Made by a program: the position numbers and the translations under genes. This document shows positions 21,459 through 39,946 of a stretch of 64,000 nt of DNA, in pieces. The number at the start of each line of letters is the position of its first letter. Position 1 is the first letter of the stretch. The DNA lies in contig CABYNZ010000002.1 of NCBI GenBank assembly GCA_902520485.1, positions 26,879 through 90,878 on the forward strand, written 5' to 3'. The notes under the pieces were generated by a model, which saw only the letters and a program-made list of their open reading frames with translations, was not told the origin of the DNA and ran no database searches. Origin of the DNA: an uncultured Prochlorococcus sp. (GTDB lineage: Bacteria > Cyanobacteriota > Cyanobacteriia > PCC-6307 > Cyanobiaceae).

Positions 21459-21511
21459 TATCGATAGTTAGAGCTTCAAGTGCATACTTCTATAAAGAGT
21501 ATTCAGCTATT

Positions 21512-21778
21512 TTAAGCCGCTTCTGGAGTAAATATTCTGCTGTTCTCTCTCCAATATCTACATCCCTTAATTAGATGATCGCCTTGAGGGATAAGCTTTT
21601 GATGAAAGGGACAAGTAAGGATGGTGACACAAGAACTTGTCGTGCTGTACCTGAAGTGATTGCAAGTAATACATATCTTCCGTCGTTTTCTTACTAATAT
21701 TTCGTCCTCTAGATAACCCCATTCCTGCCAGTCCTCCATAGTAATATAGTACAAGTGTACTAATATTAATAGCATCAA
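21512..21778 (-). CDS. Small Cys-rich protein, copy 1 of a duplicated pair
   Basis: Up to 88 residues; the shared part with copy 2 probably begins at MEDWQEWGYLEDE (75 residues). Six residues look metal-binding: C-x2-C-x-H, then C, then TCPFH and KGC (ICITCNHFRYS, SSCVTILTCPFHQ, HLIKGCRYW), suggesting a zinc-binding mini-protein. Copy 2 is at 23766-24020. 122 bp (21591-21712) are identical between the copies. The function is not known to me. Confidence 0.75.
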   Translation of the reverse strand: MMLLILVHLYYITMEDWQEWGYLEDEILVRKRRKICITCNHFRYSTTSSCVTILTCPFHQKLIPQGDHLIKGCRYWRENSRIFTPEAA

Positions 21779-21965
21779 AATTAGCTATTGGTCAACAATT
21801 AGTTCTGGAGGGGGCTATGGGGGGATAAGTCCTTATTCGAAGGTATATTTCATTGCCTCAGACATTTTTGTCATTTTTTATAGATTCGAACATTGTATTA
21901 ATATTCATTGCTTTTATTGAAGAAAAAATATTATTAAATTAATATTTTAAAAATATATCAAGAAT

Positions 21966-23711: not shown

Positions 23712-23765
23712 TAGAAGTTTGTAAGTGCCTTTATGATAGAAGCGATTAATTTTGTTCTGTGGATT

Positions 23766-24020
23766 TCAAGCGGCTTCTGGGGCAAAGATCCTACTGTTCT
23801 CTCTCCAGTATCTACATCCCTTAATGAGATGATCACCTTGAGGAATAAGCTTTTGATGAAAGGGACAAGTAAGGATGGTGACACAAGAACTTGTCGTGCT
23901 GTACCTGAAGTGATTGCAAGTAATACATATCTTCCGTCGTTTTCTTACTAATATTTCGTCCTCTAGGTAATCCCATTCCTGCCAGCCCTCCATAGCTATA
24001 TGGTACAAGTGTACTAACAT
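23766..24020 (-). CDS. Small Cys-rich protein, copy 2 of a duplicated pair
   Basis: 84 residues, nearly identical to the 21512-21778 product. All cysteines and histidines of ICITCNHF, TCPFHQ and KGCRYW are kept. The upstream region is also related (GTCAACAA near 21793 and 24045). Differences are concentrated in the two ends, while 23845-23966 is identical to copy 1. This suggests gene conversion or a recent duplication with strong constraint. Confidence 0.75.
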   Translation of the reverse strand: MLVHLYHIAMEGWQEWDYLEDEILVRKRRKICITCNHFRYSTTSSCVTILTCPFHQKLIPQGDHLIKGCRYWRENSRIFAPEAA

Positions 24021-24175
24021 TTATAGCAACTGAAAAGGGTATGAGTCAACAAGTTTTTTATTAGAAAGCAACTAAACTCTTATGCTCTTTTCGAGCTGAT
24101 TTTAAACTTTAGAAACTCCTTAAATTAAATTTAACTTTAGAGATAGATTTTTAAATTAGTTATCACTTTTATGTT

Positions 24176-26614: not shown

Positions 26615-27006
26615 TTTTTATTGTTAACTAATCCATAAATACATAAAAGAGGATTCACTATTAAAACAATCCAAAAAGGCGGAGGAGGTCCTCCATCAAC
26701 AATTGTCCCAGCGTTAAAAGTATTGAATAGAGCTACTGCTAAAAAACAAAACATCAAAGCTAATTCACCTGATAAAACTTTTCTTAAAGAGGCTTTATCT
26801 TTTATAGAACTGCAAATAATCAATAAGAAACCAATTCCCAAATTACTAGCTGCTACAACATCTGCAGTACCCCTAACAAGAAGCAATGTTTCACTTGAAG
26901 CGTCGCCTGCTATAGTTTCCACTGAAAAAATAAGTAGAAAAATAATTAAAAATCCCAACAGGAAATGAAGGGCTCCGGTAGTTTTTAAAATATTTTTTAA
27001 CTTCAT
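26611..27006 (-). CDS. Small membrane protein with four hydrophobic segments (131 aa)
   Basis: Hydrophobic helices lie at about residues 11-33, 48-67, 80-97 and 108-126 (ALHFLLGFLIIFLLIF; LGIGFLLIICSSI; ALMFCFLAVALF; FWIVLIVNPLLC). There is no recognised family. The ATG is placed directly after a run of seven T on the coding strand, with no ribosome site, in copy A of a repeated upstream element (27007-27050). Confidence 0.65.
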   Translation of the reverse strand: MKLKNILKTTGALHFLLGFLIIFLLIFSVETIAGDASSETLLLVRGTADVVAASNLGIGFLLIICSSIKDKASLRKVLSGELALMFCFLAVALFNTFNAGTIVDGGPPPPFWIVLIVNPLLCIYGLVNNKN

Positions 27007-27050
27007 AAAAAAAGGAGTTATTTGCCCCTTATTTTAGATCAACTGTCAAT
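27007..27050 (-). promoter_or_regulatory. Repeated upstream element, copy A
   Basis: Read on the minus strand: core ATTGACAGTTGATCTAA, about 21 bp with a small GGGG/CTCC hairpin, seven T, then ATG of the 131 aa membrane gene. Related copies lie at 27547, 32697 and 35753. Confidence 0.6.
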
Positions 27051-27518: not shown

Positions 27519-27830
27519 TTGAAATTACATAAAAAGTTTGTTTCAGAAAAAAGAGGCTTATTTATTCTTATAGGTTAGATCGATTGTCAATGTAATTTTC
27601 CTTATTCAATTTTATAAATTAAATCTTAAATTATATAGAGAAACTTATATTGAACTCATTTTTATATAAGTTATATAAATCAAATTAAGTAGTCTTTTTT
27701 ACCAATTGAATATACCTGTTGTTAAATAAATATATTTGTCCTTGAAAAGCTCCTAAAAAATACTTTTTCTTGAAATAAAGATTGACAAGACATTCATAAA
27801 AAAAACTTTTATAAAACATTAACTTCTTTT
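27519..27830. other. Gene-free stretch with element copy B
   Basis: 312 bp, very AT-rich. It holds copy B of the repeated element (motif 27575-27591, T-run 27547-27552) and otherwise no ORF or stem-loop that I can support. A TTGACA at 27782-27787 may serve the next plus-strand gene. Confidence 0.5.
27547..27591 (-). promoter_or_regulatory. Repeated upstream element, copy B
   Basis: Minus-strand reading: ATTGACAATCGATCTAA, 22 bp, then six T. The DLH fragment starts about 29 bp further on, so this copy does not abut an ATG. Confidence 0.55.
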
Positions 27831-32291: not shown

Positions 32292-32387
32292 TTAGCGTCT
32301 CATTTTAAAAGTAAAGTATGCAAACCCACCAAGCAATAAAAGACTTACAACCCCATAAGAAATCGCTATGCCGTAGATGTAAGTCAT
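32292..32387 (-). CDS. Membrane micro-protein (31 aa), last of an overlapping chain
   Basis: 31 residues, almost fully hydrophobic (IAISYGVVSLLLLGGFAYF) with a short basic end. Its ATG overlaps the stop of the 46 aa gene (ATGA). Probably translationally coupled. Confidence 0.55.
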   Translation of the reverse strand: MTYIYGIAISYGVVSLLLLGGFAYFTFKMRR

Positions 32388-32524
32388 TTATTTATAAAGA
32401 CATAAGCAGAATATAAATAAACTAAAAAAACTCCAATAGCTATGGAACTTCCATAAATAAGAAAGTTCCAGAATCTATATAATTTAGGTTTTTTAAATTC
32501 TTTTTCTTCTTCTTTAGTAATCAT
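32384..32524 (-). CDS. Small membrane protein (46 aa), third of the chain
   Basis: 46 residues: a charged start (MITKEEEKEFKKPKLYRFW) and one hydrophobic helix (NFLIYGSSIAIGVFLVYLY). Overlaps both neighbours by 4 bp. Confidence 0.55.
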   Translation of the reverse strand: MITKEEEKEFKKPKLYRFWNFLIYGSSIAIGVFLVYLYSAYVFINK

Positions 32525-32637
32525 TTATTTTCTTTTTCTTTTCTGGCAGCATTACCTTTTGCTCTTAATACCAAAGTGATCGTAAGGGCAGTGCTTAATA
32601 TCACAGTATCAATTAATAGGTGCGGGGAAATATTCAT
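32521..32637 (-). CDS. Small membrane protein (38 aa), second of the chain
   Basis: 38 residues with one helix (LIDTVILSTALTITLVL) and a basic tail. Start overlaps the stop of the leader ORF by one base (TGATG), and its own stop overlaps the next start (ATGA). Confidence 0.55.
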   Translation of the reverse strand: MNISPHLLIDTVILSTALTITLVLRAKGNAARKEKENK

Positions 32638-32696
32638 CAGCTGCAAAGAGAAATAAGAAGAGTCATTATCTTTTCAGCAATAAATCTATTAAACAT
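32637..32696 (-). CDS. Leader micro-ORF (19 aa)
   Basis: 19 codons (MFNRFIAEKIMTLLISLCS). The ATG follows the T-tract of element copy C after one base, the same geometry as copies A and D. The stop overlaps the start of the next gene. It may be a regulatory leader peptide. Confidence 0.45.
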   Translation of the reverse strand: MFNRFIAEKIMTLLISLCS

Positions 32697-32741
32697 TAAA
32701 AAAGAGGGATTTATCCCTCTAAGTTTAGATCGACTGTCAAT
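32697..32741 (-). promoter_or_regulatory. Repeated upstream element, copy C, with hairpin
   Basis: Minus strand: ATTGACAGTCGATCTAA, 21 bp containing a perfect 8 bp hairpin (AGAGGGAT / ATCCCTCT, 32703-32720), six T, one A, ATG. By itself the hairpin and T-run look like an intrinsic terminator, suggesting attenuation. Confidence 0.6.
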
Positions 32742-32789: not shown

Positions 32790-32945
32790 TTAGCCAGAGC
32801 AAGAGAAGGCACCTGCAAGAATATTTTTAAAAATTGGTGCTTGACCCAAGGCATACAAAAAGAAAGTTGATGATGCGAGAGTAATAGCTATTTTAGAAGC
32901 CCTGTTAACTTTCAATTTTGAGACTTTTGCAAATGCAGAGTCCAT
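32790..32945 (-). CDS. Small protein (51 aa) with one hydrophobic segment
   Basis: 51 residues: basic amphipathic start (KVSKLKVNRASK), hydrophobic segment (IAITLASSTFFLYALG), ending GAFSCSG. ATG start with no clear ribosome site. No known family. Confidence 0.55.
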   Translation of the reverse strand: MDSAFAKVSKLKVNRASKIAITLASSTFFLYALGQAPIFKNILAGAFSCSG

Positions 32946-34697: not shown

Positions 34698-34797
34698 TTG
34701 TAGTGAATACTACAAAATCGTCCGATCTACCATCTGATAGACCGCAGTACGACTCAAGCCATAGGACGGGGACTTGAGCAAGTTCAGGAGCTGCATC
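34698..34797 (+). promoter_or_regulatory. Structured 5' leader, possible cis-regulatory RNA
   Basis: Three features: a hairpin TTGTAGT-GAAT-ACTACAA at 34698-34715; a stem CTCAAG / CTTGAG around 34752-34778; and an overlapping alternative CTTGAGCAAG. The two stems cannot form together. Followed by GGAG and the ATG of the LTYRG micro-gene. GC is higher than the surroundings. Confidence 0.45.
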
Positions 34798-35375: not shown

Positions 35376-35752
35376 AAAGATAAATCCGAATTTCCTGTAG
35401 ATCTTTGCATCCAGTGAATTTTCCAAATATTATTTAATTTTTTAAAAATTGACGTAACTGTTGGTAAGTCATCATTAGGCGTCCCTTTATAAGAAAATTT
35501 TGAACCTAGTGTAAAAATGCACATTACTATATTTTCGCTTAAAAATTCGAATCGGTGAATTTTAGTTATTTCTGCCTTTTCTTGAACAATTTCATCAGTA
35601 ATCATTTGTTCGAAACCTTTTGCATCTATAGGATTACCACTCGGCCTTATGAATAAAAAATCTTGAGTCGCATTATTAACAAAAAATGAGGCCATTTTTT
35701 TTGGATTAGCAAAATCATTTAATAATGAAATTATTGTTTCTTTATCATTCAT
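35366..35752 (-). CDS. SnoaL/NTF2-like protein (128 aa)
   Basis: 128 residues with the cone-shaped NTF2/SnoaL pattern: helical start, FVNNATQDFLFIRPSG, then strands ending IWKIHWMQRST. Such proteins are enzymes or ligand binders; the substrate is not evident. The ATG follows directly on seven T in element copy D, without a ribosome site. Confidence 0.7.
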   Translation of the reverse strand: MNDKETIISLLNDFANPKKMASFFVNNATQDFLFIRPSGNPIDAKGFEQMITDEIVQEKAEITKIHRFEFLSENIVMCIFTLGSKFSYKGTPNDDLPTVTSIFKKLNNIWKIHWMQRSTGNSDLSLWD

Positions 35753-35795
35753 AAAAAAAGGGACGTAACTCTTCTAGTTTAGATTGACTGTCTAA
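35753..35795 (-). promoter_or_regulatory. Repeated upstream element, copy D
   Basis: Minus strand: TTAGACAGTCAATCTAA (a 5+5 inverted repeat in this copy), 19 bp ending CCC, seven T, ATG of the SnoaL-like gene. Spacing agrees with copies A to C within 3 bp. Confidence 0.6.
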
Positions 35796-39433: not shown

Positions 39434-39946
39434 AAGAAAAAGGATAATCAAAATACAAGATGGAATGAGAATAAAATCTAAGGACATACATTTTTTTAGT
39501 ATATTTTCTATTTAGCAAATAAAAAAATCTTTGGCATTAGTTTCTTTTCTTTAAAATTTTATTAAATATGTCAAAAATTATTTAAATACTTATTTGTTTG
39601 CTTGCTTTTAAAATTGAAAGAGCTTGCAAGTATCCCACCGGCAAGCTCATGACGACCTAGTTAATTCATTTTTTTTGATTTAACCAGCTAAGCACTTCCT
39701 AAATGCTTCTTCTATCTTACTAAGTAAAATTACTCACTGTGAGTATAAATGCTCATTTCCAGTGATTTATCTGCAAATTTGATAATAAAAGGTGATTTAA
39801 TCAAAAATTATGACCTGTTAATTGTTTTTAAGCAGATATGTCACATACTGACCCGTAAAGTAAATACTAAGAGGAAAATTATTAGAAATTTTGGTTTACA
39901 TAAGTTAATACATGTGTTACATTAGTTAACAATTATTATCTTTTTA
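39434..39946. other. Control region upstream of the hli gene
   Basis: 513 bp without a supported gene. GAGCTTGC (39620-39627) and GCAAGCTC (39641-39648) form a perfect 8 bp stem, not followed by T. The hli promoter lies at the right end (39895-39932). Confidence 0.5.
39895..39932 (+). promoter_or_regulatory. hli promoter, plus-strand copy
   Basis: TTTACA (39895-39900), 17 bp, TACATT (39918-39923), one base, GTTAACAA (39925-39932). The same layout occurs at the minus-strand hli locus (40873-40910). Confidence 0.6.

Follow-up and report, generated by a model that had tools for sequence, protein, structure and literature searches.

Four small overlapping ORFs were found on the minus strand of the window, by which the whole analysed stretch of 64,000 nt (G000:C2) from a Prochlorococcus genome of 1.26 Mb (81% complete) is meant. 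A leader of 19 codons is followed by ORFs of 38, 46 and 31 codons, here called B, C and D, and the junctions leader–B, B–C and C–D read TGATG, ATGA and ATGA, respectively. These codon counts and links agree exactly with the initial annotation of this DNA, according to which the chain would be invisible to normal gene callers. The latter holds for the leader (60 nt), but B, C and D (117, 141 and 96 nt, respectively) are longer than the minimum gene length of 90 nt that is commonly used by Prodigal. No Shine-Dalgarno-like motif precedes any of the four starts at this locus, and the leader ATG has none of the sequences GGAG, GAGG, AGGA and AAGG within 16 nt.

Table 1. Features of the repeated element and of the ORF chain behind it (positions are those of the window).
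Feature	Position	Strand	Remarks
Conserved upstream block TTGACAGTCGATC, 13 nt, adjoining the upstream end of the -10-like hexamer	32728..32740	-	Near-invariant in 60 copies
-10-like hexamer TAAACT (TAnnnT), predicted promoter core	32722..32727	-	60-copy alignment
Terminator-like hairpin AGAGGGA-TAAA-TCCCTCT with a T-run behind it	32698..32720	-	Arms covary across copies
Leader ORF, 19 codons, MFNRFIAEKIMTLLISLCS	32637..32696	-	Stop TGA overlaps the ATG of B (TGATG)
ORF B, 38 aa, one hydrophobic segment and a basic tail	32521..32637	-	pN/pS 0.13
ORF C, 46 aa, charged N-terminus and one hydrophobic segment	32384..32524	-	ATGA overlap with B; pN/pS 0.27
ORF D, 31 aa, one hydrophobic segment	32292..32387	-	ATGA overlap with C; pN/pS 0.40

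Each of the B, C and D products has a single hydrophobic stretch (17-residue Kyte-Doolittle means, 2.05–2.22), which bears out their earlier description as single-pass membrane peptides. Comparison with Pfam, NCBIfam, PHROGs and the PDB sequences returned nothing above the curated cut-offs or at E ≤ 0.001 for any of the three, and a sub-threshold match of C to NDUF_B12 (E-value, 0.019) was treated as chance. The D product may resemble CcmD-like peptides. B, C and D probably act together in one membrane assembly, which is the likeliest guess in view of how closely the three are linked and of the topology they have in common.

The 450-nt stretch recurs practically complete, at 86–100% identity, in 33 of 61 genomes of the genus. 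Genome contigs yielded 154 relatives of B, and the named ones are from single-cell genomes of Prochlorococcus and from isolates, among them MIT 9107, 9201 and 9302. A recognisable leader is present at 66 of the 78 named loci with B and absent at 12, and its stop touches the ATG of B, which is partly so by construction, since the scan sought stops near the start of B. The leader–B junction is of the TGATG/TAATG type in 59 of these 66 cases and, after loss of the first stop, ATGA in 7, and the 4-nt ATGA overlap is kept at 58 of the 61 B–C and 42 of the 44 C–D junctions found. Overlaps of 1 or 4 nt between a stop and the next start are, in other words, kept between strains. The pN/pS values of B, C and D (Table 1), compared with medians of 0.63–0.81 in column-shuffled alignments, reveal purifying selection, while that of the leader within the chain (0.67) is no different from shuffles; as the sequences compared are related and not independent, such shuffle tests overstate the significance somewhat. 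Selection and conservation rule out chance ORFs: the chain is not a product of chance, and it recurs across the Prochlorococcus genus. The earlier view of the chain as a compact, translation-linked micro-operon is supported.

Individual members of the chain may be broken or missing. The start of D is lost at locus L034, C is truncated at L037, and some strains have no C or D in the chain. The leader is not strictly required, because at L041 (genome G024) B, C and D are intact behind a broken leader, and at L045 and L046 B–C is preceded by another gene and by no element or leader.

The chain is preceded by a repeated element of about 46 nt (32740–32694, minus strand; model match, E-value 2e-14), the last part of which is the ATG of the leader, in line with the initial annotation. 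Three other copies are present in the window (27005–27049, 27547–27590 and 35751–35792, all on the minus strand), two of which supply the ATG of a longer ORF. An alignment of 60 copies showed, in this order, a conserved block, the -10-like TAnnnT hexamer, a hairpin, a T-run and the fixed ATG. The block TTGACAGTCGAT is invariant or near-invariant in these copies, as are (invariant or >90%) the element positions T14, A15 and T19, and the upstream block TTGACAGTCGATC is possibly a recognition site. The C before TAnnnT recalls the extended -10 of stress-type sigma factors. TTGACA was considered as a -35 and rejected, as the sequence 16–18 nt further on (GGGATA and alike) is not -10-like in either hairpin type. 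The hairpin has a stem of 7 bp, and in none of 1000 re-dealings of the 3' arms among the copies was the observed stem score reached. As the hexamer ends 1–3 nt upstream of the stem in the 60-copy alignment, a start site 6–8 nt downstream of it would be expected within the hairpin. The cassette's own transcript would then lack the 5' arm, and the hairpin would act on incoming transcripts. An ORF of 51 codons (MDSAFAKVSKLKVNRASKIAITLASSTFF..., 32790–32945, minus strand), which runs in the direction of the element, ends about 50 nt before it, and the hairpin could serve as the terminator of this ORF.

Each of five closed genomes contains 10–19 copies of the element (E ≤ 0.01), the strong ones grouped in a few clusters, as expected of genomic islands. 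Counts from the large DNA scans, in which genomes were sampled and 5–10 candidates were scored per genome, are lower bounds.

The initial annotation missed that element and leader form a genus-wide cassette that heads many other genes. Many unrelated genes are preceded by the element followed by MDKRFIAEKIMTLIISLIG or variants of this leader. Among 29 distinct contexts there are 15 in which an ORF with 25 or more codons starts between -4 and +3 nt from the leader stop, compared with 0.8 expected by chance and a maximum of four in 300 shuffles. About 14 of the 29 contexts have no good downstream ORF, and some are decayed. The genes behind the leader, as classified by reading their sequences, encode signal-peptide proteins, lipoprotein-like, GATase-like and membrane proteins, hydrophobic peptides of 29–31 residues, and D alone. 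At most loci, ORF D comes directly after C, the leader or a different small ORF, as a rule in contact or overlap with the stop of that ORF, and a few copies of D have no clear partner.

Paralogous leaders have a pN/pS of 0.24 with a pS of 0.40, and none of 300 shuffles gave a value as low; since their synonymous sites vary freely, the constraint is on coding and not on the nucleotides, which indicates that the leader is translated. Frame breaks lacking a bias to synonymous sites, named earlier as the pattern that would speak against the chain, were not what was found for B, C and D, whereas the leader is mixed in this respect, being strongly constrained among paralogs and only weakly so within the chain. 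The leader peptide also has a hydrophobic segment (Kyte-Doolittle, 1.6–1.8).

Two variations were observed behind the element. At L045 and L046 another small ORF, MATNEELEKRIEILEKEVQHLKAILQYQMRSKKK, takes the place of the leader and overlaps D by GTGA (L045:1093–1330, L046, L166). At L067, L118, L119, L121, L123 and L133, near-identical signal peptides (MRKLLIPLLAAFALPTAVNA) follow the element and the mature proteins differ, which may reflect an exchange of N-termini along with the element.

It is likely that element and leader constitute a natural, mobile 'bicistronic' expression cassette, free of Shine-Dalgarno motifs, which delivers ribosomes to the next gene by termination-reinitiation. 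According to this model, the TTGACAGTCGATC block and TAnnnT would act as a promoter inside the element, and transcription would begin within the 5' arm of the hairpin or where this arm ends. Hairpin and T-run would form only in transcripts that enter from upstream, stopping them and insulating the cassette. Without the aid of a Shine-Dalgarno motif, ribosomes would start on the ATG that the element supplies, translate the 19 codons of the leader, terminate at its stop, which adjoins or overlaps the following start, and begin anew at that start, in the manner of engineered bicistronic designs. Overlaps of -4 and -1 are arrangements linked to coupling (PMC12548453). In the copy described here, the ribosomes handed over would make B, C and D in linked amounts.

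Other explanations of the same arrangement were weighed. The leader could be an independently acting peptide of 19 residues, either membrane-active or regulatory, its nearness to the next start reflecting compactness only. The hydrophobic segment and the amino-acid-level constraint among paralogs would suit such a role, but leader stops touch or overlap the starts of unrelated genes far above chance, and the leader residues are loosely constrained within the chain; this explanation appears unlikely. Even less credit is given to a selfish repeat, in which element and leader would spread as a unit and tolerate their neighbours, the overlap limiting the harm of insertion and the benefit to the host being nil. 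The many clustered copies per genome, several of them decayed or without a downstream ORF, fit this picture. Purifying selection on the paralogous leaders does not, nor does the start codon, which is held about 41–46 nt from the 5' end of the element in most copies with an ORF, and no mobility gene was noticed beside the element, albeit without a systematic search.

The least probable of the alternatives is the attenuator that the initial annotation had considered possible for the hairpin and T-run, which would conditionally stop transcription started upstream, so that read-through turns the micro-operon on. A terminator-like hairpin with a T-run and covarying arms, located just before a leader, does recall such a device. 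However, the hairpin proper (32720–32703) comes before the leader ORF, and not downstream of or overlapping it as in a leader-peptide attenuator, so that translating the leader cannot control it. The TAnnnT hexamer, moreover, places the expected start site inside the hairpin; the attenuator was rejected on the positions of the two. In addition, the hairpin is weak or absent in about a third of the element copies, and no alternative antiterminator pairing was noticed, though none was systematically searched for.

The proposed bicistronic cassette has counterparts among known systems. In class 1 integrons, ORF-11 of attI1 (and ORF-17/18) is a short leader ORF that couples to genes lacking their own initiation signal (PMC8876359). 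As with ORF-11, the leader is short, lies in a fixed upstream element, and has its stop near or overlapping the start of whatever gene comes next. Unlike the cassette, ORF-11 has a Shine-Dalgarno motif, is part of a recombination site accompanied by an integrase, and depends little on its residues, whereas the cassette has no such motif, occurs in many dispersed copies, and carries a leader whose residues are under selection among paralogs. The feature tested, the missing Shine-Dalgarno motif before the leader, places it outside the integron system, and no attI/attC or integrase was noticed among the ORFs read. MIRUs (mycobacterial interspersed repetitive units) are short repeats, scattered in the genome, with a small ORF that is coupled to the following gene through a -4 overlap (PMC12548453). 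The element shares with them the dispersed repeat and the small ORF overlapping the next start; MIRUs insert at the start codons of existing genes, whereas the element also has a putative promoter and a terminator-like hairpin. Bicistronic designs (BCD), including the leaderless BCD of Corynebacterium, use a short fore-cistron with an overlapping stop and start (PMC10367133). In both BCD and the cassette, this overlap would make expression depend less on the gene that follows, but BCD is engineered and depends on a Shine-Dalgarno motif in the fore-cistron, while the cassette is natural and has none. The best-supported reading is a natural bicistronic cassette that would work like ORF-11 or MIRUs, with a promoter and an insulator-like hairpin in addition.

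More tentatively, Prochlorococcus could use the element as a portable expression socket that is insulated and needs no Shine-Dalgarno motif. Its stress-type promoter, together with a hairpin ending incoming transcripts only and a conserved 19-residue leader that delivers ribosomes, would allow new island genes to be expressed at once, and B–C–D would be a three-part membrane complex of fixed ratio; this wider proposal is possible but doubtful. The hydrophobic nascent chain of the leader would perhaps also bring the mRNA to the membrane. Genomic islands are the sites of gene gain and loss in Prochlorococcus, and a cassette supplying both promoter and ribosome entry would, if true, be a direct answer to how incoming genes that have neither are expressed in a reduced genome. 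The proteins of the leader and the micro-operon are also of a small size that is often overlooked in standard annotation.

The element may be akin to 'PRE1' of MED4, a repeat of similar length (~48 nt) in the islands of high-light strains. Papers by Voigt (2014) and Lindell (2007) are said to describe a ~48-nt MED4 repeat. To our knowledge, a leader peptide and coupling are no part of the description of PRE1, and a limited literature search found no published description of the element. The element itself may thus already have a name, while the leader and the coupling are, as far as we know, new.

Among the sampled genomes of the family, neither B nor the element turned up outside this Prochlorococcus genus, apart from one marginal match to B in another genus. 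The window also contains Yfr20 (39621–39708), which represents the sole non-coding RNA in genomic island 5 of MED4 (PMC2518516). A phage origin of the chain was rejected, as viral contigs gave no confirmed relative for B, D or the leader, and phage records no match to the chain.

The element itself was observed in two cyanophage-like viral contigs. In L262 (1037–1080) it lies just upstream of a UvsX-like gene, with its ATG in another frame, and the ORFs of this contig resemble, by reading, UvsX, a replicative helicase and MazG. In L263 (400–562, minus strand) the element is followed by MSSSMKDFLDKFFDLCREYQEEIPPQKMAEILRDYADRLDG, directly after a PhoH-like gene, and the MSSSMKDFLDKFFDLCREYQEEIPPQKMAEILRDYADRLDG family also follows this element in islands of the host (L042, L050, L054, L232). 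Because one of the two contigs carries the element ahead of a host-island gene family, these observations suggest exchange with phages. Synechococcus phages gave weak blastn matches to the element, which may be terminator hairpins.

Elsewhere in the window, two direct repeats of 290 nt (21509–21798 and 23763–24052; 90% identical) hold near-identical minus-strand ORFs of 84–88 residues, and a glutamine-II riboswitch aptamer that scores above the Rfam gathering score is found at 34716–34778 on the plus strand.
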